Origin: Arthrobacter sp. MYb227
GTDB lineage: Bacteria > Actinomycetota > Actinomycetes > Actinomycetales > Micrococcaceae
Reading direction: 5' to 3'
Assembly (NCBI RefSeq): GCF_002975435.1
Contig: NZ_PCPT01000005.1
Location: 124,001-188,000 of the forward strand
Length of the DNA: 64,000 bases
Position 1 is the first letter of the stretch; the number at the start of each line of letters is the position of its first letter. A model generated the notes under the pieces. The model was not told the origin of the DNA. It did no database searches and was given only the letters and a program-made list of their open reading frames with translations. A program made the position numbers and the translations under genes. Below are positions 3,256-63,551 of this stretch, one piece after another.

Positions 3256-4881
3256 ATGGACACGTTCACCTTTAAAGACCAAACAATCCACTATGAACAC
3301 CGGAAGGGCACTTCGGATCGCCGGCATTTGATTGTGGTTTTCTCTGGGTTTCGACCTCGAGGTACTTTTGATTTACACGGAGAGTCATCTCGAAACATCA
3401 AATGTGACATCTTGTGGATTGAAGACTGGTTTGAAAAGAACCACGCATACTACATAACGACTGGTGGCGATCTGGAAGTTGCCGAAGCCGTAAACGCACT
3501 TATCGAAGAAACCCGTCGTAAAGCTCAACTTGAAAAGAACGAGTGTACGATGCTTGGATTCTCCAAGGGTGGAACGGGAGCTCTGTATCAAGCGCTTGCA
3601 TATGAATATGGAAACGTAATTGCCGTTGCACCAAGAATGAATTTTGCTTCAGCGAATCGGCAGCGAAACTTAGATGTATTTGAAAACATAACGTCGCTGG
3701 GTACAGATGAAGAAGTAGAGAGACTGGATCGGATCTTACCGAATTTACTAGAGGAAAAATCTTCCTCAAGCATAAATATTTATTTATTTAGCTCGCAATC
3801 TGACTATCAATATGCGACAGAAATTGAACCATATATATCTACTTATGAACAATATGGCAATTTTAACTACGTACAGCTAAACAGCCCCTTTGTTACCGAT
3901 CACATTGACGTTAGTCGGTACAGCGTTCCGATGGTACTTTCGATCTTGACTGCGTTGGCTGAACGCGCCAAGCTGAGATTTGGTCGTATTGAAAGTGGCG
4001 ATTTCGCCCGAGCCCAGGAAGGCCTTGGAGCGCCGAGTATCGATAAGGTCGCTTTGAGAAATGAAAGTATTTTTTCACTTGATTCAGCCTCCATTGCGAA
4101 TGGAAAACTCTATCCCAACGGCGTTGCCTTTATTAAAGGTAATCAGGCACTAACTTACGGGAGCATCCAGCGCTGGCTTATATTGAGATCTAAAGAGAAT
4201 ACGAAACGATTTGCGCTTGGAAGCCTAAACGATCGAGGCTTATCCAGCAAGTATTTTGAAAATGAATTCTGCGACTATTCTAAGGCCCGATTTGCCTCAA
4301 TGCGGCAAGCAGGGATCGATTTGGCAGAAATTCCAGATGACGTATACGAAATCGGTGTCGCCTTAAAACACGCGGGCCAAAGTTTGACTCAAATGTCCGT
4401 GGAATTGATTGGACAAGAGTCGTATGGAATTTCAGGCGATTCTATCGTTGAGGTGAAGAAGACTGTAACGTCCACAATTTTGGTGAAGCGTCCTTTGATC
4501 TCTGAAACAATTCATGACCCACTTTTTTCGCTGGTAAGTACGTGGTCGACTGAAGGCCGAATTCATGTGGAAGGAATCTATGCCATAGCTGGACAGCCGA
4601 CACCAGAGTGGTCCGATATACAGTACTTCTTAGTACTTAGAAAAGCTGGCTCTAAGAATATCCGGTTTACGGGATTGCTTGCCAAGGATCATAAACCAGA
4701 GATCAATAATCTCGTTTCGGATAAATACGCGGATTATTCGAAAAGTTATTACACGACACCTAAGTACTTAGGCATACCGCTTCAAGGTATCGGTAAAGGT
4801 TCATATGAAATGTTCATCACTCGCAGGACAGTAGGCGGAGTGTTTACGTGGAAAATTGAAGATTTATTAGTTATCGATTAA
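3256..4881 (+). CDS. Alpha/beta-hydrolase-fold protein with two tandem C-terminal modules (cell-surface glycan type)
   Basis: The N-terminal 240 residues read as an alpha/beta-hydrolase. There is an early strand HLIVVFSGF, a nucleophile elbow GFSKGG with Ser103, a likely acid Asp183 in SQSDYQ and a likely base His216 in TDHIDVSRY. The remaining 300 residues contain two copies of a beta-rich module (about 275-385 and 430-535), each ending with the pattern DYxKxxFxT, a small GIDL/GIPL turn, then GxYE. The same architecture recurs in the 816-residue protein at 7362-9812. The closest described relatives I can think of are Asp2/XcbB-like proteins of surface-glycan loci; this is recognition of fold and context, not a search. 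There is no signal peptide. The gene is AT-richer than metG, which suggests transfer. Confidence 0.6.
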   Translation: MDTFTFKDQTIHYEHRKGTSDRRHLIVVFSGFRPRGTFDLHGESSRNIKCDILWIEDWFEKNHAYYITTGGDLEVAEAVNALIEETRRKAQLEKNECTMLGFSKGGTGALYQALAYEYGNVIAVAPRMNFASANRQRNLDVFENITSLGTDEEVERLDRILPNLLEEKSSSSINIYLFSSQSDYQYATEIEPYISTYEQYGNFNYVQLNSPFVTDHIDVSRYSVPMVLSILTALAERAKLRFGRIESGDFARAQEGLGAPSIDKVALRNESIFSLDSASIANGKLYPNGVAFIKGNQALTYGSIQRWLILRSKENTKRFALGSLNDRGLSSKYFENEFCDYSKARFASMRQAGIDLAEIPDDVYEIGVALKHAGQSLTQMSVELIGQESYGISGDSIVEVKKTVTSTILVKRPLISETIHDPLFSLVSTWSTEGRIHVEGIYAIAGQPTPEWSDIQYFLVLRKAGSKNIRFTGLLAKDHKPEINNLVSDKYADYSKSYYTTPKYLGIPLQGIGKGSYEMFITRRTVGGVFTWKIEDLLVID

Positions 4882-4985
4882 TTCTTCTCACAACGAACTA
4901 GCTCTATGATTGTGCTTGGTGCCTTTTAAATTAATTTTGGTACCCAGTATTACGGAACTAGGGATGCTCTTTTGACAAAATTTAT

Positions 4986-5006
4986 CTGTGGTCTGTGGTC
5001 TGTGGT
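4986..5006. repeat. 7-bp tandem repeat, three copies
   Basis: CTGTGGT is repeated three times exactly, followed by CTGC. It lies just upstream of the ISL3 remnant in the untranslated gap after the hydrolase gene. It may be a slippage product at the edge of the decayed insertion sequence. Confidence 0.8.
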
Positions 5007-5015
5007 CTGCGAGAA

Positions 5016-5298
5016 GTGAAAAAGAATGCCGCTGATGTGTCTTGAAGAATCGGGTGTGAAGAAAACCTCCATTCAAATTGCAGGGCAGATACCACCCCGT
5101 TTACGACTAACCACACGTTTGGTGAGCACAATCTTTGAAGACTGTATCAGTGTGACTAGCACCATCACCGGCATCGCCAAAGCCAACTTGATCGCCTGCC
5201 CAAATGTGCTGCGCAAGAACTACGCGAAGTGTACAAGACGCCTCAAAGAAATCCTTGAATCGGGTCTACAGCTGATCGTCAATTTCCGGCAAGTAACA
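5016..5298 (+). pseudogene. ISL3-family transposase remnant, first part
   Basis: An open stretch (5026-5325) starts MPLMCLEESGVKKTSIQI. It matches, with many substitutions, the zinc-finger-to-helix part of the ISL3 transposase at 15459-16628 (CLEETCAKKTFVQV, then IVEDCVTEIRTITGIAQAN versus IFEDCISVTSTITGIAKAN). After about 5235 the match jumps to a much later part of the protein (RLKEILES), so roughly half a kilobase of the transposase core has been deleted. At 5298 the similarity stops, because an IS1634-type element is inserted there, and it resumes at 7035. The gene is dead. Confidence 0.8.
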
Positions 5299-7034
5299 CC
5301 TGACTCGTGCCACTGTTTGAGTTGAGGTTTTTCAATGATCGGTTGACTCGAGCTTTTTGGTTTTGGTCGGTGCGTTTGTGGTTACTAACAATTCATTGCT
5401 GGGTATGCTGTTGGCATGGGTTCACGATTCGTGCGCAAGGTTCGCACCGCTTCTGGCGCGGTTGCGGTGCAGATCGTTGAGAAATCAGGACGGCAGGTCG
5501 TTGCCGTTGAACACGTGGGTTCCGCTCACTCGGATACCGATTTAGCATTGTTGTTGGCTGCCGCTCAGGAGCGATTGATGCCTGGGCAAGGAACGTTTGA
5601 CTTGGGGTTTGTGGAGCGGGTCCCGGTTTCACTCGCTGATGTTGCCGATTGGACTGAGCAGCATGTGATTCCTATTCCTGAGAAAACCAAGATTATTGGC
5701 CGACCGGCACGTAGCGTTTCCGCCGAAGGTAAGGTCTTAGCTTCTCCCGCGGCAGAGTTGTGGGATGTGTTGGTCGGTGCGTATTCCCGTCTTGGCTTTG
5801 ATGTCCTGGACGATGAGGGTTTTCGAGCGATGGTCTTGGCCCGGTTGATTGAGCCCACGTCCAAGGCCGAAAGTATCCGGGTCTTGGATGATATCGCGGC
5901 GCCTCATCCTGCCTTGCGGACATTGTTTCGGAGTCTGAAACGCAGCCAGGAACACGATTATCGAGACCTATTGGCCAAGGCCATGGTCGGATATCGCACC
6001 AAAACCACTGGGTTGGCCGCGATGATCATGAGACGAGCCCACCCTTCACTTCCAGTCCAAGGAAGAAGACAAGATCCGTCGGGTCGGGGAGAGCCAAAGA
6101 GCACCGGGTGGATCCACAAATCCAGGTCGGGCTCTTGGTAGATCCAGCCGGATTCCCACTAGAACTGCATATGTTTCGAAGGGAACAAGGCCGAAACGAC
6201 CACGATCCTTCCAGTCCTTACTGCATTCCAAGAACGGCACGGGATTACCGACATGGTCGTAGTTGCCGATGCCGGGATGCTCTCGGCTGGCAACCTGCAA
6301 GCCATCGAAGATGCCGGTTTTAAGTTCATTGTTGGATCCAGGCTCTCGAAGGCCCCGTACGATCTGCAGGAACATTTTGATACCAAGGGCAACAAGTTCA
6401 GTAACGGACAGATCCTTGAATCCGCAAGGGTCACGGGCACCGGAAAGAACGCTCGTGAACGTCGGGTCGTTTATCACTGGTCGTTTAAACGGTTCCGACG
6501 CGATAACCAAAACATCAACCATATGGAACGCCGAGCGATGGATATCGCCGAAGGCAAGATCCCGGTCCGCAAGGCACGCTTCCTGAGCGTGACCGGGTCG
6601 AAAACCTCGGTCGCTAAAAGTACCCTCGAACGAGCCCGACAGCTCGCCGGTCTGAAAGGGTACGTCACCAATATTTCTCAAGATGCCATGTCAGGGAACG
6701 AAATCATTGGTTCTTATCATGATCTGTGACAGGTGGAAGCGTCCTTCCGCATGACCAAACATGACCTTCAGGCTCGACCTATTTGGCACCGACAAGAAGA
6801 TGCCATCAATGCGCACCTCACCGTCGTTTTTGCATCCTTGGTGATCGGTCGGCACCTGCAAGAGCTTTCCGGGATGAGCCTCAAGAAGCTCATCACTACG
6901 CTCAAGGCCATCAAGTCCGCCAAAATCCTGATCAACGGCGAAGAGGTCCTCATCCCTGCTGAGATCCCGGAAGGCTTCAAACCCACATTGCAAACCCTGA
7001 AAAGTGGTTACTAAGGCACTTGGCACGAGTCAGG
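5299..7034 (+). mobile_element. IS1634-family insertion sequence, decayed, with terminal inverted repeats and target duplication
   Basis: A perfect 14-base inverted repeat bounds the element: CCTGACTCGTGCCA at 5299-5312 and its complement at 7021-7034. AGTAACA occurs immediately outside both ends (5292-5298 and 7035-7041), giving a 7-base target duplication, or 6 if the terminal base is shared. Joining the flanks restores continuity with the ISL3 transposase sequence, which independently confirms the borders. The 1736-base size fits an IS4-superfamily IS1634 element. The single transposase frame inside is broken. Confidence 0.85.
5416..7014 (+). pseudogene. IS1634-family transposase, three frameshifts and one nonsense codon
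   Basis: The N-terminal part (5416 to about 6025) reads MGSRFVRKVRTASGAVAV, then AVEHVGSAHSDTDLALLL, typical of IS1634-family transposases. The frame then moves by one base three times: near 6025, near 6097 and near 6174. The last shift returns it to the original frame, in which MVVVADAGMLSAGNL and the DDE core continue. At 6727-6729 a TGA interrupts YHDL-stop-QVEASFRMTKHD, where the family normally has Trp, so TGG has become TGA. Translation would resume in the same frame to TAA at 7014. Every domain is otherwise present, so inactivation looks fairly recent. Confidence 0.88.
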
Positions 7035-7205
7035 AGTAACACGTGCGAAATCTGCTGAGAACCACCAGCAGTGAATCCTTCCCCACCAGCTGAGACAAGA
7101 TTCAAAGTTCGGTGAAAGCCTCCGGAATAGACGATGCCAGATTCAAGCTACGCACGTGCTCTTCACGGTGAAAGGAACTCGCAACCTATCGCCCTACACA
7201 GCGTC
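7035..7205 (+). pseudogene. ISL3-family transposase remnant, second part
   Basis: This stretch continues the ISL3 remnant interrupted at 5298. It aligns to the reverse complement of about 15490-15660: AACACGTGCG, then CTGCTGA, then GGTGAAAGCCTCCGG, then a degenerate match to the stretch encoding the ELETYCLT region. It no longer encodes a protein. The match fades at about 7200, shortly before the separate ISL3 end at 7214. Confidence 0.7.
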
Positions 7206-7213
7206 AGCTATGG

Positions 7214-7283
7214 GGCTCTCAGGCTTTGAGCGTGGTGTCATCAAATAAGTAAGGCCACAGCCCCATGGATGTTCCCTGAACTC
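7214..7283 (+). mobile_element. Solitary ISL3-family element end (transposase-proximal end)
   Basis: About 70 bases match the transposase-upstream end of the ISL3 copy at 15311-16730 read in reverse. The end motif GGCTCTCAGGCTTTGAGCGT corresponds to GGCTCTCGGACTTTGGGCGT, followed by the shared TCATCAAATAAGTAAGGC and GGATGTT. The match ends within the leader before any transposase codon. The end points into the same strand as the older ISL3 remnant just upstream, so it belongs to a second, truncated copy or to a rearranged tandem. Confidence 0.75.
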
Positions 7284-7361
7284 AAAAGAGCGTTTATTTA
7301 GTTCTCAGAAATCTTGATAACCATGAACGGTAAGGTCGTAAACCGATTAATTGTAATCATA

Positions 7362-9812
7362 TCATTTCAATTCGGTAAATTTTATCAGTGTTGTATGCGG
7401 CAGGAGGGCAATCAGCTCACTATGTGTTCGTGAATAGTATGAGGGTTCATAATGCACATTTGCAGGGCCCCATGGATGATCCTTCGCACTCAGAATGTTT
7501 GTTTGATCAATTTTTAAGTTAGAGCATGAAAAAATTTCTAAAAATATCTTATCCAAAGTTTCCCAAAATTGATTAAAAGATATCTGATTTGAAAACTTTT
7601 TGAATTCGTATTGATCATAGTAGCCCTTCACGCCACGCGCAGAATTCACGATAATAGTAGTATTTGGTAGATATTTCTCTGCAAAAATTTTGAAATTAAT
7701 TGTCGCTTGTCTGAATAGCGACAGAAATGCTTCGGGCGCAGATTGCCGGGAGTATCTCGAATTCTTGGCTAAAGATGGATAATGATTCGACGTGCCAAGT
7801 TTCCAGGCGTTGTCGGTGATGTAGGAGTTTCCCATCTGAATGCAACCGAACCTGGCATCGGAATAGAAATCAAGCATGATCACATCCGGCTGTTCTGCAC
7901 GGAGTTCCGAGAGATAGGATTTATCGAAGTCTCGCTCGGTAGCAATTCTGCTATGCTCATCCATTCCACCAAGGTCTACTTGGGCCCTCGAGACAGGTTC
8001 AGCCAAGAGAGAGACCAGTGACATTTGATATTGTCCACCGTGGAAGGCATACCTAGATTTCCAGCCGGGCGAAAGCTTGCTGTTGAACAAGTCCCTCGTC
8101 ACACACGACCCAATAACACCAACTGTGAGCTGATTCTTGTCGGTTGTGAAAGATTCCTGGACTTCAATTTCTAAGTTGAGGTCTTTAGTAACGACTAAAT
8201 TTTTTGTGACAGCACTAATGGAGAGCTTATAATTCCCACGGCGCAGCCCATCAAGGTCTATTCCTTCGTATTTGGAGGTTGCGAAGTATGATTTGGAATA
8301 ATCATTCCATTGATCATTAATAATACTCCCGGCATTGGATCTATTTGCATTCGGCAAGGGAATTATTATTGGGGACTCAAGCTGAGTCGAACTATTTAAT
8401 ATGAGATGATAGGAAATATCCCGCCATCCCGGTGTCGGCTGACCCGGGATAATGAAGTAACCCTGGACGTGCAGCATAGAATCCTTCGCCCAACATTTCT
8501 CGAGGGAAAGGTAAGAGCCGTAATCTGCCCTATTGAGCAGACTTCGTTTGGATAGCTGGGCGCCAGCTTCGTTAACGCTTATCTCATAAACGGATGTACC
8601 ACAGATCGTTCTTTGGTAGGTAGAACGATGCGCTTTAACTGCAGCTTCGAATTCTTGTCCTGAATGTTTGGAATGAACAAGAATATCGTAAGTACCGTAC
8701 GCTATATCTGATAGATCGATGCCTTCGTTGCCAAGTGTGGTGAAGCTTGCAAAGTTGTAATCGCATGGTTCGTTTTCGAAATACGAATCAGAAAGACTTG
8801 CGTCCTTAGCAGTTCCAAGCTTGGCCGAAATAGTTTCGCTTGTTCCGTTTAGCATTAATCTGCTAGTGACTTCACCATGTTTATGCGCAGGGAAACCCTT
8901 CGCGAAGGAATGGCCTTCAATGTGGAATCGGTCCCGAACCATTCTTGGTGTTTTGGTTGCAAAAACATGTTCTTTACGAATTCTTACCGATTCTAAATTT
9001 GGTTGGATCTTACTTGAGCCGAAATTGTTGACACCATTGCGCACAGAGCCAAAACGTGGAGCAGCACCTTCTGCTAAAGCATAGAATATCGAGAGTATGA
9101 GGGGAACGTTGTACCAAGTTACCCGATCATGTTGCCGGACTAAGGGGCTGTCAGTTTCAATGTAATTGAAGTTGTGATATTTTTCGAACAGGTGTAGGTG
9201 CGGCAGCACCTCAGTCTTAAACTGATCATCCGCAGGTGAAGTGAACAGGTAGATATTCTTTGAGAGCTGTCGATCAGATTCTAAGGTCGAGGGAAGAAGC
9301 TCATCTAATTGCGAGATTCGTTCTGAGTGCGCTTCAAGCATGCTGTCAAGGACAGCCGGCATGTTCTGTGAAAGATACGAGCCGATCTTGAACTGCGGAA
9401 CGGTCGAAAGTATGTTGTTGAATCCGTATTTCGCACCGTAATACAGTGCGGCACTGCCACCCTTGGAAAATCCAGCCAGTGTAACGTGAATTTTCTCCAA
9501 CCCCATGGACTCCATTTTGGAAGCGATCAAAGAGTAAACTGTGTCGGTTAAATCTTGATTCTTCGAGTATAGATAGTACGAGAAGTCATCGTTAAAATAG
9601 TCTTGAATCCAAAGGATGGCCCCGCGAAGTCCTTGGATCGCAGCTCCATCAAAATCATATGTTTGCTTCTTACGGAAACCCGAAAAGATAACAGTCAAAT
9701 GTTTTCGATCTTGTTTTGCTTTACGGAATTTATATGTGATCGGAATGCCATTAGACGTAAATATTTTCTCGTTCACGTATCTATTCCACATCTTTCGGTT
9801 TCTATAATGCAA
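7362..9812 (-). CDS. Alpha/beta-hydrolase-like protein with two tandem modules and a C-terminal DUF6270 (SGNH-like) domain
   Basis: This 816-residue protein has the architecture of the 541-residue protein at 3256 plus an extra domain. The hydrolase part has a strand LTVIFSGF, an elbow GFSKGG (Ser116), a probable acid Asp195 and a probable base His228. Two beta-rich modules follow (about 290-410 and 450-555) with the pattern DYxxxxFxT, GIDL, GxY. From about residue 562 a DUF6270-type domain begins with VIGSCVTRDLF and closes with DHPWGPANVHYEPSYY, where GSC and the Asp-His pair are the expected active-site-like positions. DUF6270 proteins occur in polysaccharide loci and resemble SGNH esterases or acyltransferases. 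I infer modification of a surface polymer. ATG at residue 8 is an alternative start. The gene is AT-rich. Confidence 0.62.
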   Translation of the reverse strand: MHYRNRKMWNRYVNEKIFTSNGIPITYKFRKAKQDRKHLTVIFSGFRKKQTYDFDGAAIQGLRGAILWIQDYFNDDFSYYLYSKNQDLTDTVYSLIASKMESMGLEKIHVTLAGFSKGGSAALYYGAKYGFNNILSTVPQFKIGSYLSQNMPAVLDSMLEAHSERISQLDELLPSTLESDRQLSKNIYLFTSPADDQFKTEVLPHLHLFEKYHNFNYIETDSPLVRQHDRVTWYNVPLILSIFYALAEGAAPRFGSVRNGVNNFGSSKIQPNLESVRIRKEHVFATKTPRMVRDRFHIEGHSFAKGFPAHKHGEVTSRLMLNGTSETISAKLGTAKDASLSDSYFENEPCDYNFASFTTLGNEGIDLSDIAYGTYDILVHSKHSGQEFEAAVKAHRSTYQRTICGTSVYEISVNEAGAQLSKRSLLNRADYGSYLSLEKCWAKDSMLHVQGYFIIPGQPTPGWRDISYHLILNSSTQLESPIIIPLPNANRSNAGSIINDQWNDYSKSYFATSKYEGIDLDGLRRGNYKLSISAVTKNLVVTKDLNLEIEVQESFTTDKNQLTVGVIGSCVTRDLFNSKLSPGWKSRYAFHGGQYQMSLVSLLAEPVSRAQVDLGGMDEHSRIATERDFDKSYLSELRAEQPDVIMLDFYSDARFGCIQMGNSYITDNAWKLGTSNHYPSLAKNSRYSRQSAPEAFLSLFRQATINFKIFAEKYLPNTTIIVNSARGVKGYYDQYEFKKFSNQISFNQFWETLDKIFLEIFSCSNLKIDQTNILSAKDHPWGPANVHYEPSYYSRTHSELIALLPHTTLIKFTELK

Positions 9813-9988: not shown

Positions 9989-12151
9989 TTAGGCAAGCTG
10001 ATTCATTTCAGTGGATTTTGAGCGTATTTTGTAGAATTGGCTCATCGGTGTCTCCACAATCGATAGTTCGACCCAGGCAGCTTCTTCGATTTCTTTGTTA
10101 GACGTAAGGGCAGCAAGACGTGCGATAGATGTCAGAAGATAAACGTCTGCATGCTTCAACTCAGAAGTCGATTGGAAATCGTAAAGCGGAAGTGCAAACT
10201 CGAGAGCACGGGAATATTCACTAAAAATCTCTGTGTTGCGCATCAGTTCTATGCGCAATGACTTTTCGAGCTTTTTGCTGATCGACGGCCGTGATAGAAG
10301 CAGAGTCTTTTCTGCACTTGTAATGAGCTCCATCGCGCTATCGTTCTTCTGGCGCATGTTAGCGGTGGAACGAAGCTGAGCGATTCGCAGCCTGCATTCA
10401 GTTTCTGCTGAAACTGGAGAGTGTTTCACTAACAAAGATTCGGCGGACTCCACACATTCGCGATCGCGCCCAAGAGTATATAGTGCATCGATTTCTCGCA
10501 ACGTGAGGTCCGCAAGGAGCTCGTTATTCGAGAATCCGGCATTTACCAAAACATTACGCTGCTTTCGCAGGCGCTTGACTGCTGTCTTGGGATCGACGAT
10601 TTCCAATAGTCTACAAAGAGTGTAGTTTGCTGCTACATACTCAAAGCTCGCCGCTGTGTATTTCCGTTCGACATCGAGCACCCAGAGTTTCATTGATTCA
10701 GGGTTGGAATCTGAAATGTTGGTGGAACTTAACATCTTGCTGGCCTGGCCGAGAATCAAACTACTCTGCGCGAGAACCAAATCCGAGAAGACTACGTACC
10801 GTTCCTCTGAGGTAAGAGACGTCGGAAGCTCTTCGCTGTTCACGTCCCTGCTGAGGTTGAAGCGATGGTACCAATTTGTCAGAACCTGCATTTCCGAGCT
10901 TCGCTTGTCGGAAAGATCTTGAGAAGTAAGATGGTCCGCAAGTAACTCGAGACTTGACTTCACCAAGCCCATTCTTCCCTCATACAAACCTCGCCTGATC
11001 ATTGAGTTCAAGTGCTGTTCAACGGTGGTGTGGCATGTGTCATGACTCAAGGCCGATTCTTTGCCGTGCTCGTCAGGCTTGTAGATCTCTTGAAGAGTAT
11101 GTAGCGACAACGAAACAGATTTGTGAAGCTCATCATCGATTCTGAGCGGATCCGTAGTTGCGAATTGGGATTTTGCAAACTTCATAATGTTTGCGACGGA
11201 CCACGTCGAGAGTCCCTGGAGAAAGGTGATTGCCCGCAATGGTGTCCAAATGGGCGAACTAGCGACGGCAGTCGGAAGCTTCTGGTAAAAGTTACTGAGT
11301 GCCGCAACCAAGTCTTCAAAGTTCTCGTGTTCAGCGAAAAGTCTGGGATCGATAATGTCAGCGGTAGCTATTGACCAAAAATTGATTAGCTGCCGTATGT
11401 CTTCAGCGACAAGGGACTCAGCACCACTTGGAAAGCTAACCAATTCTAAAGCTAGAATGTGCGCTAGGAGAACTTTGTCAGAAACAAGGCTCATGTTTTC
11501 TGCCAAAGTCATTGCCTCCTCAAACAGCTGCGTTGAGGAGGAATGTCCACGCCAAGACGAAATTACCCGTAGGAGCTCTGAATGGTAGTGCTTGCCTTCA
11601 ATAAGGTCAGAAATTTTTGATGCTACGAAGAGATTGCTTGAGTCAGATTGATTTGACGCCTCGGGCGCCGTTTCATTAGCTAAATGCGATGGCTCCGTTA
11701 ACCACGATTGCGTGCCCGAATATATAGCCAACGTGAGTAATTCTTCACCATCAATGTCAGTGGTATAATCTGCTTGTTTTGCGAATTCTTTACACCAATG
11801 AAGGTACTTTTCAACTTCGCCGTATTGACCAAGACGGTTCGTGAGTCGAAGTAGCTTCAAATTTAGTGTCAATAAATACGGTGTTGAGCCAAGATCAATA
11901 GACCGTGAGAGGCTATCTAAGCGGTCCATGGCTTCCTGGTACTGCCCATCCTGGACCAAAGCATCTGCCGCAATAAGCCATGCGCGCAGAGCCTCATCCG
12001 ATGTGACGCCAAGACGCCGAGTGCTCGAACGTGCTTCTGTAACTAGGTGGTGCTCATTGCGATCAACAGCATTCATTGGCATGTATCTAGGTGTTCCCTG
12101 CTCTGGCTTTGGTTTCATCCAAGTATAGAATGAATTCGCGAGTCCTGACAC
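9989..12151 (-). CDS. Hypothetical all-helical protein (TPR-like), 720 residues
   Basis: I do not recognise a named family. The sequence is almost wholly predicted alpha-helical, with recurring pairs such as ALRAWLIAADALVQDGQYQ and LLRLTNRLGQYGEVEKYLHW that resemble degenerate tetratricopeptide repeats, both near the N-terminus and around residues 480-640. There is no signal peptide or membrane segment, so it is probably a cytoplasmic scaffold or binding protein. The start is taken as GTG at 12151; ATG codons at residues 12, 24 and 26 are alternatives. It diverges from the GT2-TagF gene with about 90 bases between them and follows the hydrolase-DUF6270 gene's direction, which suggests that it serves the same surface-polymer island. 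Confidence 0.55.
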   Translation of the reverse strand: MSGLANSFYTWMKPKPEQGTPRYMPMNAVDRNEHHLVTEARSSTRRLGVTSDEALRAWLIAADALVQDGQYQEAMDRLDSLSRSIDLGSTPYLLTLNLKLLRLTNRLGQYGEVEKYLHWCKEFAKQADYTTDIDGEELLTLAIYSGTQSWLTEPSHLANETAPEASNQSDSSNLFVASKISDLIEGKHYHSELLRVISSWRGHSSSTQLFEEAMTLAENMSLVSDKVLLAHILALELVSFPSGAESLVAEDIRQLINFWSIATADIIDPRLFAEHENFEDLVAALSNFYQKLPTAVASSPIWTPLRAITFLQGLSTWSVANIMKFAKSQFATTDPLRIDDELHKSVSLSLHTLQEIYKPDEHGKESALSHDTCHTTVEQHLNSMIRRGLYEGRMGLVKSSLELLADHLTSQDLSDKRSSEMQVLTNWYHRFNLSRDVNSEELPTSLTSEERYVVFSDLVLAQSSLILGQASKMLSSTNISDSNPESMKLWVLDVERKYTAASFEYVAANYTLCRLLEIVDPKTAVKRLRKQRNVLVNAGFSNNELLADLTLREIDALYTLGRDRECVESAESLLVKHSPVSAETECRLRIAQLRSTANMRQKNDSAMELITSAEKTLLLSRPSISKKLEKSLRIELMRNTEIFSEYSRALEFALPLYDFQSTSELKHADVYLLTSIARLAALTSNKEIEEAAWVELSIVETPMSQFYKIRSKSTEMNQLA

Positions 12152-12240
12152 TTCGCAGACGATGAAGACACTTTCTATGGGTCATTTCCTGCTCTTGATC
12201 GGTTAGCGAACGGACTGAAACGACAAATAAAGGTAGTTTG

Positions 12241-14967
12241 ATGAATGATCCCCTGATTAGTGTAATTCTTGCTGTATACGATGTTGAAGAGTACGTAGAA
12301 GCGACGTTGACTTCGTTGGACAGGCAGACATATGAATCGAAGAATCTTGAATTCATTATCGTGAATGATGGTTCAACGGATATGAGCCTGGAGAAAGTCA
12401 CTCGTTGGGCGAAGGATAAGTCAAACGTCACAGTTATATCGCAAGAGAACCAAGGTGCAGGTGCGGCTCGTAAAGCCGCGCTAGAGCTGGTTACAGGCGA
12501 TTGGGTCACGGTGGTAGACCCCGATGACATTCTCGACCGTGATTATTTTTCTGCAATAGCCCGTTTCATTAAACGGGACGAATCCAACGTTGCAGATATG
12601 TTGATTACGAGGATTCTTGTACTAAACGGTACAACGGGCCGCGTACAAGATACGCACCCACTGGCCTACCGTTTCAAGAACGGCAGCAGATTAGTCTCCC
12701 TAAAGGATGAACCTAGCTGCATTCAGCTCGGTGCGACAGCAGTATTAAGAGTTGCTCGATTGAGGGACTCCGGCCTCACATACGACCCAAGAATTGAGCC
12801 TACATTCGAAGACGCACATTTGCTAGGACGCTATCTGGCCACTACGGCAGAGCCAGTTGTTGGTGTTGTTGCCGATGCGAAATATTACTATCGGAAACGC
12901 TTCGACCAGTCCTCTCTCGTTCAGAGCAGCTGGAGTACTGAAGACCGCTACAGCACTGTATTAGAACTAGGTTACCTAGACATGCTGCGTCAAGTTACCA
13001 ACAAGCTTGGTGAGACGCCGGTTTGGGCACAAACAATCGTTCTATATGACATTGCTTGGTATTTTAAGGAAGACACTCAACAGCATTCGAGAACTGCATG
13101 GATCTCGGGCGAGTTGCGAGATAATTTCATCAACAGCCTATACGAGATTTTTTCTTATATTGATAAAGAAACGATTGAAAATTTCTCCGTAAATCCGATC
13201 TGGTGGTCCCTTCGCCAGACGATACTGTCTTATTTCAAGGCCGACTATTTGAACAGTGCGCGAACTGTTCAATGGGGTAGCAATACCCAAACGGGATCAA
13301 ACCAGTACTGCATTCTTTACAGCGGTATCGAACCCGAACTTCAGATCTTTGTCGATGGCCTTGAAATCCAACCAACCAAAGACGATTACACGACGCACTC
13401 CTATTTTGGTATTCCCATGATGGTCGAGCGAAATATCACTATTGGTCACCCCGGCAGCGTCAGAATCTTGATTGATGGGAATAAAGCTCAAATTGAAAGA
13501 GCAGGAACTTCCACGCCGGCGCCAAAACCGGCCAACGCACGGTACAGGCTCGCGCCAATTCATGCGCAAGGGCAGAAATCGGTGCTGGCGAAGATTTCTG
13601 GGCGGGTCATTGGTACTGGAAGAATTGAAAAATTTGAGGGCATCTCTAAAAAAGCATCCTCAAAGCTTAGATACGTGACTACACGTCTAGAAGTCGAAAG
13701 TCTAGCGCTTTCTCTGCCGGTTGCTAAAGTTCTTGGAAACGCTGGCGTGACTGTTGCTAACAAACGAGCAGCAAAAGTCCGAGAGCTGAAGGAACAAGAA
13801 CACGCTACACAACTCAAGAAAATTGCTGCAAAGAGTGAGATCAGAGAACGCTATAGGGATGCCTGGGTTGTCATGGACCGTCCAATGCGTGCGGATGATA
13901 ACGGTGAACATCTTTATCGTTATTTGCTGACCGAGCGGGAGGATGTAAATGCGTTTTTCTTGCTGAGTAAGAACTCATCCGATTGGTCGAGGCTTAAATC
14001 TGAGGGCTTCCGACTCGTCGATTATGCCTCAGACGAAGCGGTATCGCTACTGCTGAATGCAAAATTTAGAATGTCTTCCGACGCAGTTGCCGAGGTAATG
14101 TACCCGATTTCCCGCAGATACTATGATTTGTCGAAATCAAAGTTCATCTTCTTGCAGCATGGAGTGACTAAGGATGACTTGTCTCGTTGGCTAAATCCGA
14201 AGAAGCTCGATGGTGTTATCTGCGCAACCCAAGCTGAATATGATTCATTTGTAGGGATAAACTCTCCCTATACAATTCGGAAACATCAGGCACTACTTTC
14301 TGGGTTCCCACGCTTTGATGGACTCCACCGCGCGCAGCAGTCTCTGGAAAACGATCCGGATCTACTCCTCATTATGCCGACATGGCGGCAGTACCTTCGC
14401 GACGAAATTGCGAGCGCTTCGAATGAGGAGGAAGCCCGAGATATCTTTTCGAACTCTGAATTCGGTGAAAATTGGCTGCAGTTCCTGCGAGCTCCCGAGC
14501 TGAGCCAAATTGCTCAGCGCTCTGGACTCAAAATTGGTTTTATCGCTCATCCCGCTTTTGCTAGCATGATCGAGTACCTGGATGTTCCTTCGTATGTCGA
14601 AGTTCTCGAGCCTGAAGTCCACGGTTTTCAGAACCTATTAGCTCGCGCGGCAGTTTTTATAACCGACTATTCTTCGGTCGCGTTCGATACAGCAAACCTC
14701 GGTATTCCGGTTGTTTATTTCCAGTTTGATCCGGAACAGATGTTCGGTGGTGGCCATAACTTTAGGCGTGGATATTTCGACTATTCATCAGATGGTTTTG
14801 GCCCAGTGTGCGCAACAGCCGCAGATGCAATTGCTGCGCTGGAAGAGTCTTTAGATTCTAATAGTGCTGAATACCTAGAGGAATACCGTAGAAGGACGAC
14901 CGCCGCATTTGCATTCCAAGATACCGAAAACTCAAAACGTGTTGCGGAAATGATCGAGCGACTCTAA
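12241..14967 (+). CDS. Bifunctional GT2 glycosyltransferase / CDP-glycerol glycerophosphotransferase-like protein
   Basis: Residues 5-220 form a GT-A family 2 glycosyltransferase. The start LISVILAVYD is followed by IIVNDGSTD and the metal-binding VVDPDD near 93-96. The middle (about 330-530) is a poorly conserved linker that ends in a basic helical stretch. Residues from about 540 to the end form a TagF/TagB-type GT-B domain: LQHGVTKDD, MPTWRQYL, AHPAF and TDYSSVAFD with the Ser-Ser pair that contacts substrate. Such fusions polymerise or prime teichoic-acid-like chains at the inner membrane face. ATG at 12241 is preferred, with GGTAG a few bases upstream, over the adjacent TTG. It faces away from the 720-residue gene. 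Confidence 0.82.
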   Translation: MNDPLISVILAVYDVEEYVEATLTSLDRQTYESKNLEFIIVNDGSTDMSLEKVTRWAKDKSNVTVISQENQGAGAARKAALELVTGDWVTVVDPDDILDRDYFSAIARFIKRDESNVADMLITRILVLNGTTGRVQDTHPLAYRFKNGSRLVSLKDEPSCIQLGATAVLRVARLRDSGLTYDPRIEPTFEDAHLLGRYLATTAEPVVGVVADAKYYYRKRFDQSSLVQSSWSTEDRYSTVLELGYLDMLRQVTNKLGETPVWAQTIVLYDIAWYFKEDTQQHSRTAWISGELRDNFINSLYEIFSYIDKETIENFSVNPIWWSLRQTILSYFKADYLNSARTVQWGSNTQTGSNQYCILYSGIEPELQIFVDGLEIQPTKDDYTTHSYFGIPMMVERNITIGHPGSVRILIDGNKAQIERAGTSTPAPKPANARYRLAPIHAQGQKSVLAKISGRVIGTGRIEKFEGISKKASSKLRYVTTRLEVESLALSLPVAKVLGNAGVTVANKRAAKVRELKEQEHATQLKKIAAKSEIRERYRDAWVVMDRPMRADDNGEHLYRYLLTEREDVNAFFLLSKNSSDWSRLKSEGFRLVDYASDEAVSLLLNAKFRMSSDAVAEVMYPISRRYYDLSKSKFIFLQHGVTKDDLSRWLNPKKLDGVICATQAEYDSFVGINSPYTIRKHQALLSGFPRFDGLHRAQQSLENDPDLLLIMPTWRQYLRDEIASASNEEEARDIFSNSEFGENWLQFLRAPELSQIAQRSGLKIGFIAHPAFASMIEYLDVPSYVEVLEPEVHGFQNLLARAAVFITDYSSVAFDTANLGIPVVYFQFDPEQMFGGGHNFRRGYFDYSSDGFGPVCATAADAIAALEESLDSNSAEYLEEYRRRTTAAFAFQDTENSKRVAEMIERL

Positions 14968-15310: not shown

Positions 15311-16730
15311 GGCTCTTCGGCTTTGGGCGTGGTGACCGGATGTTCAGCACGGTCTGAGGTCGCGTGCCGAAAACAATAATATCCGTAGTCGGTAGTTCTC
15401 GTGGTTGATGTATCCGCGTCCCATCCGTTTGAAGTTCTTAGCCGTCAAGTTCGCCGCTTCACTTCGGGCATTGGCCAGCTAAGGTGAGGCAGTAGGTTTC
15501 GAGTTCTTTCTTCCATGCGGTGAAGGTGCGCAGCAACGACTTGGCCTCGTCCAGGCCGGAGGCTTTCACCGAGGCTGAGAGTTTTTCCCAGCCAGCGGCG
15601 AAGGCTTCGGGTGTATTGCTTTTCAGCAGGTCCCGCACGTGTTCCTTGATGGCATAGACCACCACGAGTTCGGTATCTGATTCAAGGATTTCCTTCAGGC
15701 GCCCGGTCTGCTTCACGAAAGAGGTTCTCCAGGTTATAGGTCAAGAGTTTGCGGTATTTGTAGGCCGGATCGATGTTCCTTCCACGACGTCCATGCAAGT
15801 CGTGGGCGCGGCGTTGCCGCACCGCGGTAAGCATCTGATGAGCACGTTGGACGATATGAAAACAATCCACCGAAATCTTCGCCTCCGGCAAAGACTCATG
15901 GATGGCCTTGCGGAACTCGGCGGACAAATGGAAACGAAACATGGCCAATGTTTCGCTTCCATACTTCGGGGCGTTGAGCCATCCAAGTAGTCACGGCTGC
16001 ACCGTGGCGTCCGTCAATGACATCAAGGATCCTGCCGGTTTCCAGATCCGTAAAAACAATCGACCACGGCTCCAACCGGATAGCTTTTCCCGAAGCTCCC
16101 AGCACGTAGCGGATCCTCCTGAACCGGTGTTCATCGATCCCGAGCCGGCGCACCAGGCACTGATCAACATCCAACAAGATGTGTTCGGTGGCAAAAGCCT
16201 TGCGCAGCACGGTGGGCCAAGCGACCTGGTTGGCTTGGGCAATCCCGGTGATGGTGCGGATCTCGGTCACACAGTCCTCAACAATTTTGCCTACCAAACG
16301 GGTAGTCAGGCGTGAGCGTCAGGGGGATTTGCTCGGTGACTTGAACGAAGGTTTTCTTCGCGCACGTTTCTTCGAGGCACACCAGCCGACGTTTCTTCAC
16401 CCATAGGACCAAGTCTTTGCCGCCGGTGTCGATGTCCTTGACTCGGTGCACCGGGCGAGCCTGGACCCGCCGTGAAAACACCCCACAGGTAGGGCAGGCA
16501 GCTTCGCGGTTGATTGGTTCCACCAGCACCGAACGCGAGGGCCCCACCCGCTCACTGCTGAGCACCGCATAGTCATCAAGATTCAACAGAATCGACGCAG
16601 CATCAACTGCGCCAGTATCCTTATACATGGCTCGTAGTCCTTGGAAATATGTTGTTTAGAGAACATCCATATTTCCGTAGAGCTGCGAGCCTTACTTATT
16701 TGATGACACCACGCCCAAAGTCCGAGAGCC
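15311..16730 (-). mobile_element. ISL3-family insertion sequence with inverted repeats and 8-bp target repeat
   Basis: The ends are 24-base imperfect inverted repeats: GGCTCTTCGGCTTTGGGCGT... at 15311 and, on the other strand from 16730, GGCTCTCGGACTTTGGGCGT..., both continuing GGTG. Outside them lie GGTAAAGG (15303-15310) and GGTAAAAG (16731-16738). This is an 8-base direct repeat with one difference, the size known for ISL3 targets. The length of 1420 bases is normal for the family. The transposase inside is frameshifted. Confidence 0.85.
15459..16628 (-). pseudogene. ISL3-family transposase, multiple frameshifts
   Basis: The protein starts with a zinc-finger region (ACPTCGVFSRRVQ, RPVHRVKDI), then KKRRLVCLEETC. 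It continues in other frames through EIRTITGIAQANQVAW, the DDE core (EPWSIVFTDLETGRILDVID, then KISVDCFHIVQRAHQ) and RLKEILESDTELVVVYA near the end. Four overlapping open pieces in three frames (breaks near 16300, 15920 and 15700) are needed to read it, so no active transposase is made. The last piece reads through the normal end at about 15459. It is similar to, but much better kept than, the remnant at 5016-7205. Confidence 0.87.
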
Positions 16731-17888: not shown

Positions 17889-19289
17889 TTAAAGTTCGGC
17901 TGACGATTTCCAGGGGAAGTACCTCTCCAAGAAATTCTTGATCATAAGTTCATCATCTGCGGCTGGCGATTTTTTTGATGCCACTTGGTTGAGGCAGAAG
18001 ATTGTTGGCTGATCCCACAGTAGTAGCCTTGATAATTCAATCTCAGCTCTGGGTGAGCTGATGTCGATGTACCGATAATTGATTTGAGCCGACGTGGCCG
18101 TGCCTACTATTGCGCCGAAGTGGTGTGCAAGATTTGAGGGTAAAGCAACATCTGTCCGCTGCCTGAACTTTTGGCGACTTGTTTCGCTAAGGCTGGTGCG
18201 GAAATCTTTAGCCGCACGCTTGAGGGTGCTCAATCGCTGTGCGTGTGCCGTGTGTTTAAACTTATGGGTAACTTTATAATTAAACCGGTCCTGCAACATT
18301 CTTTTGATGTTGTAGGCGGCCCAATTGCTTGGCAGATCAGTAACCGAAGGATCGTCCGGGACTTTATTTTCGCTCTCGAAAAACTTGCTCAAGCCTTCAT
18401 TGGTGAAAAAAGTCTTTGGGGTGCACCAATCTGCAAGAAATACATCGTCATTGAAGTAGAGGAAATGTTCTTTCAAGCCAGGGATCCGATGCAAGTTTGC
18501 TTCTATCGCATGGGAATTGAATGTTGGTAGATCTTCGGGATTCTCGAATATTTGCTTATGTGTGACTACGGTCACTCGAGTGTTGCTGGTGTCCAGCCAT
18601 CCCGGAACTTGTCCGTTAGTGACTATGTAAATGTGATTTACCCAAGGGGCGAACATCTCTAAGGATCGTAGTGAATACTTGAGCTCTTCTCTGTCCTGAA
18701 AGCGGACAATGTCAGAAGCTGTTCGAGGGCTAGCTGAGCCGTATTGCTCGAGCGCGGCCGCGTATTCTCTTTTCCATTGAGGGTCTTCACTGTCTACCCA
18801 GGTGTACACGACGTCTATGGGCTCATTGAGCGCATAGTTCTGGGCCTCGGCAAGAGTGTTGGCGTGGTCCATGATTTGAGTGCAAATCGCGCGGGTAATA
18901 TTTTTGCGAAGCGAATGCGCAAATGGAGATAGCCGAAGTCTGCCACTCGCTAACGGGTGTGTGTTGCTGAATAGTCCAGTAGATACAAATAGCGGTGCAA
19001 CAGAAGGTAGCGTTGCGTCGGCCAGCTGAAGTTGAGTGCGGCCAAGGTGGGCTTCTCTTGTGTACTTGAAACCAGCGCTGTCCAGGATTGATTCAATATG
19101 GGCTAGGGTCTCTAGTCGAATACCTTCGATTGTGAGGGATTTGTCAAGTGGCGGTAGATTCTTTCTAGCCCCCTTGGTTCGTAGCTGGTCTACGACCGTG
19201 AAGGCTGAATGTGCGATTTTCCATACTGGAGAAGGTAGGTGTGACGCGACGCGCCCTCTCCAACCACTCACAGTTTTTCCGTCCGTCAT
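17889..19289 (-). CDS. Stealth-family sugar-phosphate transferase
   Basis: This 466-residue protein shows the four conserved Stealth regions. CR1 is IDVVYTWVDSEDPQW (158-172). CR2 is the long block from REELKYSLRSLEMFAPWVNHI through FLYFNDDVFL, including the NDD acidic motif. CR3 is HKFKHTAHAQRLSTLKR, and CR4 is TIFCLNQVAS near the C-terminus. Stealth proteins transfer hexose-1-phosphate or hexosamine-1-phosphate units in capsules and wall polymers, and are related to GlcNAc-1-phosphotransferase. It lies at the right end of the AT-rich glycan island and would add phosphodiester-linked sugars to a surface polymer. The start is ATG at 19289. The exact substrate cannot be read from the sequence. 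Confidence 0.9.
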   Translation of the reverse strand: MTDGKTVSGWRGRVASHLPSPVWKIAHSAFTVVDQLRTKGARKNLPPLDKSLTIEGIRLETLAHIESILDSAGFKYTREAHLGRTQLQLADATLPSVAPLFVSTGLFSNTHPLASGRLRLSPFAHSLRKNITRAICTQIMDHANTLAEAQNYALNEPIDVVYTWVDSEDPQWKREYAAALEQYGSASPRTASDIVRFQDREELKYSLRSLEMFAPWVNHIYIVTNGQVPGWLDTSNTRVTVVTHKQIFENPEDLPTFNSHAIEANLHRIPGLKEHFLYFNDDVFLADWCTPKTFFTNEGLSKFFESENKVPDDPSVTDLPSNWAAYNIKRMLQDRFNYKVTHKFKHTAHAQRLSTLKRAAKDFRTSLSETSRQKFRQRTDVALPSNLAHHFGAIVGTATSAQINYRYIDISSPRAEIELSRLLLWDQPTIFCLNQVASKKSPAADDELMIKNFLERYFPWKSSAEL

Positions 19290-19416: not shown

Positions 19417-20106
19417 TTAAGGCGAGACAATTCCGGTTTCGTAGGCGATAACAACTGCCTGAACCCGATCCCTTGCGTTGAGCTTGGACAATATATGCCC
19501 AACGTGAGTCTTTACCGTAGCTTCCGAGAGGAAAAGCCCCGAAGCAATCTCCGGGTTCGACTGGCCATTAGCGATGAGCTCAAATACTTCTCGCTCACGT
19601 GGAGTCAAGGATGCCACAGCTTTGACGTGTTCGCTATCGGGCATACTTGAGCGTCGCAGTATTGGTGCCACGTGGTCCAGTAGGCGCCGGGTTGTTGAAG
19701 GAGCGATAACTGCGTCTCCTCGATGTACGGTGCGGATCGAGTCCAGAAGTTCCTCGGGAGGGGCATCCTTCAGGAGGAAGCCGCTAGCACCTGCCTGTAT
19801 TGCGGAAAGCGCATACTCATCGAGATCGAAGGTTGTTAGAACGATGACTTTTGGTGCGGGTATTCCCTTTGGCCTGTTGCTAAGCAAGTGCTCGGTTGTT
19901 TGAATACCGTTCATTTCCGGCATGCGCACATCCATAAGGATCACATCTGCGGTGCTCAGTGTTGGAGAAGCAATAGCTTCCCTGCCATTGGAAGCCTCGG
20001 CAATTACCTCTAAATCCTTCTGTGAATTAATGAGCATTCTGAATCCGCTGCGCACCAATAGTTGGTCATCAACGAGTGCTACCCGGATGGGGTTGTCCTT
20101 AGGCAA
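19417..20106 (-). CDS. NarL/LuxR-family response regulator
   Basis: The receiver domain spans residues 7-125. It has the acidic pair VDD (13-14), the phosphoacceptor Asp59 in LMDVRMPEMNG, the conserved Thr in VLTTFD and Lys in FLLKDAPP. The LuxR-type helix-turn-helix follows near the C-terminus: LTPREREVFELIANGQSN, then LFLSEATVKTHVGHIL. The gene is five bases downstream of the histidine kinase gene on the same strand, forming a standard two-component pair. The signal and target genes are unknown. Confidence 0.95.
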   Translation of the reverse strand: MPKDNPIRVALVDDQLLVRSGFRMLINSQKDLEVIAEASNGREAIASPTLSTADVILMDVRMPEMNGIQTTEHLLSNRPKGIPAPKVIVLTTFDLDEYALSAIQAGASGFLLKDAPPEELLDSIRTVHRGDAVIAPSTTRRLLDHVAPILRRSSMPDSEHVKAVASLTPREREVFELIANGQSNPEIASGLFLSEATVKTHVGHILSKLNARDRVQAVVIAYETGIVSP

Positions 20107-20111
20107 GGTTT

Positions 20112-21299
20112 CTAGTCCTCTGTGTATGGAATGAATACGGCAACCCTAAAGCCACCGCTTTGCTGAGGTGTAGCTTCTACCTGGCCATCATAGAGAGAAA
20201 CCCTTTCATGCATACCGCGCAGCCCTTGCCCGGAGTCAGCAGTGCCTAGTGCGCCAGCACCACGACCGTTGTCGGCAATAACAATCTTTAGGCCACGATT
20301 GTCCCAAGAGAGACTGACAACTGCTTTAGCGGACGGGCCAGCGTGTTTGACGACATTCGTTAGGGCTTCCTGAACTGAGCGATACGCGGTTAGTTCGGCA
20401 CCCGCAGGGAGTTCGCGACGAGGTTGGCCACTTGCGTTGTACTCAATGTCCAGTCCTGTTTTACGCGTCGATTCTAGTAGGTCTTCTACATCAGTAAGTG
20501 TTGGCAGGGGGCGCGTGGAGGCTTCCTCATCATTGCGGAGCACTCCTAAGAGACGCCTCATCTCTCTTAGAGATCCACGGCCGGTATTTGAAATTGTTGC
20601 TAAAGTTTCTCTGGCTATTTCTGGATCGTGCTCACTTGCGTACCTTGCGCCGTCCGCTTGAGTGATGATTACCGACAGTGAATGCGCAACTATGTCATGC
20701 ATTTCTCGGGCAATGTGGCTACGTTCATCCGCGGCGGCAAGATCTCGTTCTTGTTGGCGCTCAATTTCCAAGCGCCGTGCGCGATCTTCGAGTGTTTGTG
20801 TGGCAATTCGACGTGTACGCGCCAGATCGCCAAAAGTCCAAGACACCATGACAGTCAGGGCAAGTCCCATGAATGAAATGAGCCAGCCTTCGAGCGACCA
20901 GCTACCGCCTAGTAAGAGCAATTTACTGCTCATCAGGAATGCTCCCACAAAACCTGAAATCATCCCAGCAATCGACTGCCATCGTTTGGCATAGGCGGCC
21001 AATGTATAGACAACTATTGGCACAGAAATCTGCGATGGCAAAAAGTCTGTATACGTAACTAGCTGGATTAGGTGTGCTGCAACGATAATAGCTGCCGCGA
21101 GGCCTGGGTGTTTCCGGCGCCAGATGAGGGGGAGGGTTTGTGCCGAAGCGACCACCACAAGCGTGAAGCCATTGCCTCCATAACCCATCAGGAATGCGCT
21201 CCCGAGCCCGAAGAGCAACCACATACCAAGGCCGAGAATTAGATCTACTCTGTATGGATTCTCTCGAATCCAGCGATCAATGGTGCGGTGGGGCGTCAT
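20112..21299 (-). CDS. Sensor histidine kinase (HisKA_3 type)
   Basis: The N-terminal 160 residues are hydrophobic, with about five membrane segments and little extracellular sequence, so the sensor is probably intramembrane. A short coiled region (170-190) leads to the dimerisation/H-box AREMHDIVAHSLS with His201. The catalytic domain has IVIADNGRGAG, then GLRGMHERVSLYDG and a C-terminal GGFRVAVFIP strand, as in DesK/NarX-like kinases. It forms an operon with the response regulator downstream and diverges from leuB, with the leuB operators in the shared 160-base gap. Confidence 0.95.
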   Translation of the reverse strand: MTPHRTIDRWIRENPYRVDLILGLGMWLLFGLGSAFLMGYGGNGFTLVVVASAQTLPLIWRRKHPGLAAAIIVAAHLIQLVTYTDFLPSQISVPIVVYTLAAYAKRWQSIAGMISGFVGAFLMSSKLLLLGGSWSLEGWLISFMGLALTVMVSWTFGDLARTRRIATQTLEDRARRLEIERQQERDLAAADERSHIAREMHDIVAHSLSVIITQADGARYASEHDPEIARETLATISNTGRGSLREMRRLLGVLRNDEEASTRPLPTLTDVEDLLESTRKTGLDIEYNASGQPRRELPAGAELTAYRSVQEALTNVVKHAGPSAKAVVSLSWDNRGLKIVIADNGRGAGALGTADSGQGLRGMHERVSLYDGQVEATPQQSGGFRVAVFIPYTED

Positions 21300-63443: not shown

Positions 63444-63551
63444 TGGTTTCCTTTCGGCCCCATGCCTGAGGACCAGAAACAATACTATGGGTTAAAGCTG
63501 AAAGGTTTCGGGAAGAATGGCGGTGGGGCGCGGAAACTTGACGGAATCTAT

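Follow-up and report, generated by a model that had tools for sequence, protein, structure and literature searches.

The window, a stretch of 64,000 nucleotides of Arthrobacter sp. MYb227 (contig NZ_PCPT01000005.1, positions 124,001 to 188,000), carries two genes whose products, P0001 (541 amino acids) and P0002 (816 amino acids), share an alpha/beta-hydrolase core of about 250 residues and, behind it, two copies of a module of about 135 residues. Both genes are located in an island between metG (which ends at 3228) and a leuB-type gene (from 21373). An earlier note, made from the letters of this DNA alone, had proposed that they represent a possible new family involved in the modification of surface glycans. 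The two genes and their parts are as follows:

3256..4881, + strand: P0001 gene, 541 amino acids, CsaC-like core and two modules (open reading frame; homologues of the same architecture)
3265..4008, + strand: P0001 core, residues 4-251, alpha/beta-hydrolase fold, O-acetyltransferase-like (core profile; CsaC match; conservation)
3562-3564, 3802-3804 and 3901-3903, + strand: codons of the P0001 triad, Ser103, Asp183 and His216
4042..4452, + strand: P0001 module copy 1, residues 263-399 (module profiles)
4471..4875, + strand: P0001 module copy 2, residues 406-540 (module profiles; modelled alone)
7362..9812, - strand: P0002 gene, 816 amino acids, core, two modules and DUF6270 (open reading frame; structure model)
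9024..9761, - strand: P0002 core, residues 18-263 (core profile; model; fold match)
9465-9467, 9228-9230 and 9129-9131, - strand: codons of the P0002 triad, Ser116, Asp195 and His228
8580..8996, - strand: P0002 module copy 1, residues 273-411 (module profiles; model)
8160..8564, - strand: P0002 module copy 2, residues 417-551 (module profiles; model)
7449..8117, - strand: P0002 DUF6270 domain, residues 566-788 (Pfam PF19786; alignment)

The shared core and the open reading frames are as the earlier note had described them, with 35% identity between P0001 and P0002 over 530 aligned columns (E 1e-107). In the core tree P0001 groups with relatives L046, L047/L066 and L050 (support 100/99) and P0002 is placed elsewhere (91/83, weaker), and on these grounds a recent duplication in place was rejected. 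Because the tree puts them in different parts, the two are probably old paralogues.

The hydrolase-fold core

The Ser-Asp-His set picked out in the earlier note is in place in both proteins. The three residues are invariant across an alignment of 22 sequences that includes the window proteins, and they are retained in all 51 different proteins in which a module accompanies a core of no fewer than 120 aligned residues, a filter that excluded one protein with core and module (L159, with a core piece of 105 residues). The nucleophile elbow reads GFSKGG in P0001 and P0002 and fits the pattern GxSKGG; the Lys after the catalytic Ser is retained in 71 of 71 core rows. The His column holds a His in all 57 rows that reach it, with the remaining 14 of the 71 falling short; one alignment row (L057) carries X from masked DNA.

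Structure prediction agreed with the earlier note, in that the core model of P0002 has the hydrolase fold with the triad in canonical order. The model has a mean predicted local distance difference test score (pLDDT) of 82.4, with ten-residue blocks mostly between 80 and 97 in the core and the modules. Ser116 lies between strand 110-115 and helix 117-129, Asp195 follows strand 186-191 and His228 follows strand 214-220. That the three residues cluster in space is suggested by the match to the crystal structures of CsaC. The fold and the triad are well supported.

In a fold search (VIA, in which rows within one Z unit count as tied), the four best matches of P0002 were all CsaC entries (Z 23.4-24.6, root-mean-square deviation (rmsd) 2.7-3.0, 224-225 residues), followed by Asp2/Gap2 (6oyc, Z 22.3) and then by MPT51/antigen 85 proteins and esterases (Z at most 20.1). 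At the sequence level, CsaC/SacC was matched with E 6e-6 and 2.5e-5 in phmmer and with E 6e-15 by the core profile. The best NCBIfam match of the core was XcbB/CpsF (NF033892; 66.2 and 53 bits, E 3e-18 and 3e-14, below the 125-bit cut-off), a model that ends with the core and, unlike the window proteins, includes no modules. The molecule name of a PDB entry of this family (9hvz) mentions 'ACoA', and we found no literature on that entry. The Asp2 family of Pfam (PF16929, gathering score 28) matched P0002 above its threshold (30.8 bits) and P0001 below it (22.3 bits). The earlier note had named Asp2 as the nearest functional analogy. Its sequence and fold matches bear out a relation, but CsaC is closer (Z 24.6; profile E 6e-15), and Asp2/Gap2 (6oyc, 6lnw), which shares the core fold and the triad, differs in its other domains and its locus.

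CsaC/SacC of Neisseria meningitidis serogroup A (6yuo, 6yuq, 6yus, 6yuv) is described as an O-acetyltransferase that works by double displacement, with the triad S114/D198/H228, an observed acetyl-serine and an oxyanion hole formed by the amides of F40 and K115 (PMC7501274). It acts on a phosphate-containing capsule, as we propose for P0001 and P0002, and shares with them the core fold, the triad, the GxSKGG elbow and an equivalent of Tyr79. Unlike them, it is a chain of 255 residues without C-terminal modules and without DUF6270. In the profile alignment Asp183/Asp195 falls on CsaC Asp198; the alignment stops short of CsaC His228, and the equivalence of His216/His228 to that residue is drawn from conservation, spacing and the fold match. 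Asp2 is likewise reported to be an O-acetyltransferase with such a triad, which O-acetylates N-acetylglucosamine on a glycoprotein (PMC5578698). Judging from these relatives, the core looks like an acetyl-transferring enzyme built on the alpha/beta-hydrolase fold and not like a hydrolase, and 'O-acetyltransferase of the alpha/beta-hydrolase fold' would be a better term for it than the 'hydrolase' of the earlier note.

The tandem module and its companions

Two copies of the module per protein, four in all, were also correctly recognized in the earlier note. Searched with a module profile at E up to 10, the window's genome gives four places and no more, each of them in the gene of P0001 or P0002. 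The duplication is real but faint to the eye, as copies within one protein are 17.6-21.8% identical and copies at the same position across the two proteins about 32%. The profiles of first and second copies match each other (E 1.3e-22, profile-to-profile), and each also matches the position of the other in two-module relatives, with the exception of L093. The motif DYxKxxFxT...GIDL...GxY forms the C-terminal half of the module. Among 30 diverse copies, the best-kept columns are two Gly of the first half, the Tyr of DY, the Gly of GI and the last Tyr.

When modelled alone, the second copy of P0001 is a confident beta-sandwich (pLDDT 91.8). Its fold ranking is headed by TarS (5u02, Z 9.3, rmsd 4.6, 108 residues; 5tz8, residues 352-487 of TarS, Z 9.2, rmsd 2.3, 96 residues), followed by carbohydrate-binding module (CBM) domains of family CBM21 (Z 8.7-8.8). 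In this ranking of the model, first place thus goes to TarS with its tandem region for polymer binding and trimerization, in a tie with others. The tandem immunoglobulin (Ig)/CBM-like domains of TarS are reported to build a trimer, are thought to bind poly-ribitol-phosphate and raise processivity; their removal is described as leaving kcat/Km little changed and lowering processivity (PMC5156392). Like the window proteins, TarS (5tz8, 5u02) ends in a tandem region, made of Ig/CBM-like domains in its case, and it is an enzyme for the decoration of a teichoic acid. A Foldseek search with the full P0002 model retrieved RmlT of Listeria (8bz6; wall teichoic acid) with E 2.5e-7 over 539 columns, where an rmsd of about 18 means that the similarity is local only. 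In contrast to the window proteins, the catalytic domain of TarS and RmlT is a glycosyltransferase, and neither shows a detectable sequence relation to the module.

By sequence, Pfam and PDB searches gave the module no accepted named domain, in line with the earlier note, which could not tie it to one. Among 30 module copies, Pfam gave scattered weak matches to 15 families, none of them accepted, TcfC (7 of 30 copies, best E 0.0043) included, and six matches to PDB sequences (best E 0.025, to a spike protein) were taken as chance. TarS_C1 (PF18674) is absent among the Pfam matches of the 30 copies, and a search of the window's genome with a limit of E 1 did not find it either. NCBIfam held no convincing match for the module region, scanned as part of P0001 and P0002. 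We found no description of the module in the literature, where coverage was thin for subscription papers and bioRxiv. Against viral models, the module model had one match at E of at most 0.001, an endolysin of an Enterococcus phage (A0A411B6T3, E 3e-4, TM score 0.66), which might reflect a shared fold for binding wall polymers.

Relatives were also found in other actinobacteria and in gammaproteobacteria. An alignment scan of one-per-species genomes yielded 39 loci, among them Arthrobacter, Zafaria, Streptomyces, Saccharothrix and Actinomyces on the actinobacterial side and Aeromonas, Rahnella, Ewingella, Pantoea, Enterobacter, Pseudomonas, Psychrobacter and Pasteurellaceae on the other. A scan of genome contigs with P0001 as single protein had found no relative, its exact peptide patterns probably being too narrow where the alignment scan succeeded. 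Escherichia coli genomes gave no match in a DNA search with the Enterobacter relative. Relatives of P0001, with at least the core, are present in 38 of 395 genomes of its own family. Across the phylum, only the window's own genome among 396 evenly drawn ones is positive, which makes this a rare accessory trait there.

The module is shared between enzymes of different kinds. Among 63 different module proteins, 35 consist of the core with two modules, 11 of the core with one module and 6 of the core with two modules and DUF6270; the core is absent from 7 proteins with one module and from 4 with two, one of the latter (Pantoea) being the second half of a gene split into two open reading frames. 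A hexapeptide acetyltransferase is apparent in six of the seven coreless one-module proteins. The Hexapep family scores above the Pfam gathering score in L091 and L156 and below it in L097 (E 0.0012), and in L154, L161 and L162 the domain was recognized by reading only. L156 has a capsule glycosyltransferase in front, and the seventh protein, L163, combines a capsule glycosyltransferase with the module. Free-standing two-module proteins occur at three loci (L158-L160). WbbJ-like hexapeptide O-acetyltransferases, with their left-handed beta-helix, have a catalytic fold unrelated to that of the core and are absent from the window's two genes, but other bacteria have them fused to this module. 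In Actinomyces mediterranea, a single protein (L093, 6531-8984) has the core and two modules together with an O-acetyltransferase-like domain of the beta-helix kind. WbbJ matches in L093 (E 6e-14) and L091 (E 5e-19) are below the NCBIfam cut-offs, as is Hexapep in L093 below the Pfam gathering score.

The same protein bears on the DUF6270 domain of P0002, which had been overlooked in the earlier note. The domain matches its whole Pfam profile with 81.3 bits (E 1.2e-22; gathering score 27.5) and contains the motifs GSCVTRD (568-574) and DHPWG (778-782). A G-S-C follows the first strand and a conserved His lies near the end, in a part modelled with low confidence (ten-residue pLDDT blocks 44-87). 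By motif only, the domain may be related to SGNH enzymes. The profile had two matches in the PDB, a designed protein (E 0.027) and 4nzk (E 0.24), and we found no literature on DUF6270. Since the WbbJ-like O-acetyltransferase of L093 occupies the slot that DUF6270 has in P0002, DUF6270 is probably a second acyl-handling active site. Two staphylococcal proteins (L101, 8873-12320; L102, 2655-4292) carry a DUF6270-like stretch before the core, the reverse of the order in P0002, and a DUF6270-type gene is found near 6 of 17 module-free core loci, with that of L036 alone confirmed by Pfam.

Proteins of about 900 amino acids from the same bacterial family (L032, L033, L034, L037-L040, L042) have the core near the C-terminus and no module; L032, the only one of them scanned, shows a heparinase II/III-like front. 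A core relative of 434 amino acids (L164, 8790-10094, NC_025184.1) is encoded on a conjugative IncFIB/IncFII plasmid among insertion sequence elements and close to capsular biosynthesis genes. Similar matches were present in 45 of 72,556 plasmid records, 42 of them predicted to be conjugative; the context was viewed in two, which look alike. The plasmid protein is labelled 'accessory Sec system protein Asp2', a label that appears doubtful because it scores 36 bits against a cut-off of 210.75.

TagF-type and Stealth genes in the neighbourhood

The remaining features of the island are given below:

ending at 3228: metG, left edge of the island
5416-6729: remnants of an IS1634-type transposase, between the two family genes
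9989..12151, - strand: protein of 720 amino acids with weak tetratricopeptide repeat matches, upstream of P0002 on the same strand (Pfam)
12238..14967, + strand: fusion of a glycosyltransferase 2 and a TagF-type (PF04464) domain (Pfam; conserved neighbour in gammaproteobacteria)
15896-16628: ISL3 remnants
17889..19289, - strand: Stealth family sugar-phosphotransferase (Pfam)
19417-21299, - strand: response regulator/histidine kinase pair
from 21373: leuB-type gene, right edge of the island

The fusion protein is the putative polymerase of the acceptor polymer. The Stealth gene is the sole Stealth_CR2 match of the window's genome, and at E 1e-8 the loci examined contained no relative of the 720-amino-acid protein. 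A second group of TagF-type genes (57901-63482), preceded by an ABC transporter ATPase (51831) and LytR-CpsA-Psr genes (41381, 49851), is possibly a wall teichoic acid locus.

The 11 gammaproteobacterial genomes that were reached through named loci hold 11 PF04464 genes, spread over 10 of the genomes and each at 1.5-2.8 kb from a module. They also hold 11 Stealth genes, again in 10 genomes, none of which is more than 5.7 kb away from a module. The module is present in 9 of 140 genomes of the family of Testudinibacter, all 9 of which are among the 34 with PF04464 (hypergeometric p 1.2e-6, relatedness ignored). Taking the PF04464 entries as made, 18 of 21 places in 18 genomes are within 6 kb and the others at 7.5, 8.2 and 95 kb; pieces of one split open reading frame were merged for two genomes (G458, G475) and one piece in G422 was not entered. 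Counted by loci, gammaproteobacteria have a TagF-type gene in 17 of 21 cases and Stealth in 16 of 21, and module-free core-only loci have neither (0/17 each). Loci of the Streptomyces type (12 Streptomyces, 1 Saccharothrix) show a TagF-type gene in 11 of 13 cases, the two without it (L086, L100) being short contig pieces, and Stealth in none of the 13. One locus of Pantoea rodasii (L092, 5280-11618) looks decayed, because its family, TagF-type and Stealth genes are all split or short open reading frames.

TagF-like polymerases that make teichoic-acid-like capsules in Gram-negative bacteria are reported as established, and the products of two of them were compared with the native, de-O-acetylated polymers of Actinobacillus pleuropneumoniae serotype 1 and Haemophilus influenzae type c (PMC5974469). 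This comparison implies that these polymers are O-acetylated in nature. The family itself was tied to no capsule of known structure. Together with the matches to CsaC and Asp2, the TagF and Stealth neighbours support the surface-glycan modification proposed in the earlier note.

Proposed function and alternatives

We posit, as the likely reading, that P0001 and P0002 are cytoplasmic enzymes that O-acetylate a phosphate-containing, TagF-type surface polymer ahead of its export, with their modules acting as a tandem like that of TarS. In a double displacement as published for CsaC, acetyl-CoA would first acetylate the Ser of the GFSKGG elbow, and the acetyl-enzyme would then pass the group on to a hydroxyl of the polymer, on a sugar or a polyol, that the triad His activates. 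Two characterized relatives and the genetic context make acetyl transfer to a polymer likely; the mechanism is extrapolated from CsaC. The modules may hold the polymer and/or multimerize the enzyme, so that many units would be acetylated per encounter, and DUF6270 would act on the same polymer. The highest hydropathy mean over 19 residues is 1.29 in P0001 and 1.25 in P0002, and by hydropathy alone neither contains a membrane or signal-like segment, which is the expectation for the use of acetyl-CoA.

Several observations weigh against this interpretation. The residues that CsaC has in addition to its triad are kept in part: the Tyr79 equivalent is conserved, while Gln138 corresponds to Arg127 in P0001 and is present as Gln140 in P0002 only, and His201 is replaced in both proteins (Tyr186 in P0001, Phe198 in P0002). 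The extension of the triad by Tyr79, Gln138 and His201 is described for CsaC and is not shown as family-defining. The acceptor-positioning Arg148 of CsaC aligns with Arg137 in P0001 but with Asn150 in P0002, and the two proteins may for this reason act on different acceptors. On the side of the module, the TarS match is one of beta-sandwiches at Z of about 9, from which CBM21 and others differ by no more than one unit, and a Foldseek search of the module against the PDB gave no match at E 0.001 or better. The genetic context is also uneven. The 17 module-free loci used for contrast come from the window's own family instead of gammaproteobacteria and are an unmatched control. Named actinobacterial loci other than those of Streptomyces have a PF04464-type gene in 3 of 11 cases and Stealth in 1 of 11 in the stretch covered, Arthrobacter loci have neither within 10 kb (0/6 each), and 17 further loci of the window's own family have PF04464-type genes in 4 cases and Stealth in 1 (these loci, L046-L062, overlap in part with the other actinobacterial ones by sharing genomes, and totals are given by set). 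Among ten neighbours scanned at two Arthrobacter loci, no polymer gene was recognized apart from one for a membrane acyltransferase (PF01757; L068, 7085-8116), and six gave nothing in Pfam at E 1e-5. This acyltransferase gene is located about 1.8 kb from the pair of family genes in Arthrobacter sp. CAU 1506, a strain in which PF04464 matches are 15-50 kb off on the same contig. The association of the module with TagF and Stealth is thus strong in gammaproteobacteria and in the window and fair in Streptomyces, while none was seen at the Arthrobacter loci.

The cores might instead be esterases that deacylate the polymer and so tune an acetylation carried out by other enzymes, with the modules targeting the polymer. 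The same triad serves both reactions, CsaC itself is reported to hydrolyse acetyl-CoA slowly (PMC7501274), Pfam gives weak Esterase and Abhydrolase_2 matches below the gathering scores, and many esterases are among the fold matches (Z 18-20). We nevertheless regard this as unlikely, as an acetyltransferase takes both the top four places by fold (Z 23-25, against at most 20 for esterases) and the best matches by sequence, the profiles of XcbB/CpsF, CsaC and Asp2 outscore the esterase families, and hydropathy indicates no export signal. Acetylation of a secreted glycoprotein, as carried out by Asp2 of accessory Sec systems, would fit the Asp2 sequence and fold match but seems quite improbable: the window proteins reach 16 and 30 bits with the accessory Sec Asp2 model (TIGR03712), far below its cut-off of 210.75, no accessory Sec or serine-rich adhesin gene is present among the 33 window open reading frames scanned, and the TagF and Stealth neighbours indicate a polymer.

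A further alternative competes with the module part of our proposal only. The modules could serve purely for oligomerization without contact to the polymer, and their sharing between enzymes would then mark one biosynthetic complex. The trimer and the kinetics of TarS are in line with this, as are the free-standing two-module proteins; the nearest module folds, however, include the carbohydrate-binding CBM21, and the authors of the TarS study argue for polymer binding too (PMC5156392). We consider pure oligomerization to be the less probable option, albeit one that deserves more weight than the two alternatives for the core. Acetylation of a TagF-type polymer by enzymes with a TarS-like tandem is our preferred reading.

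According to our analysis, the novelty lies in the combination of domains and in a mobile module, undescribed as far as we searched, that links unrelated acetyltransferase folds; the parts themselves are of known kinds. O-acetylation of capsules is reported to affect polymer stability and immune responses (PMC7501274) as well as phage resistance (PMC13001214), and few of the O-acetylation enzymes of group 2 capsules are described as assigned (PMC8262930). The finding flags a doubtful database label, that of the plasmid relatives annotated as accessory Sec protein Asp2. With the module it could also be tested directly whether different enzymes hold teichoic-acid-like chains in a common way, by tandem domains like those of TarS. 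As a mark of decorating enzymes of several folds beside TagF and Stealth genes, it may provide a sequence handle by which acetylated polymers could be predicted.

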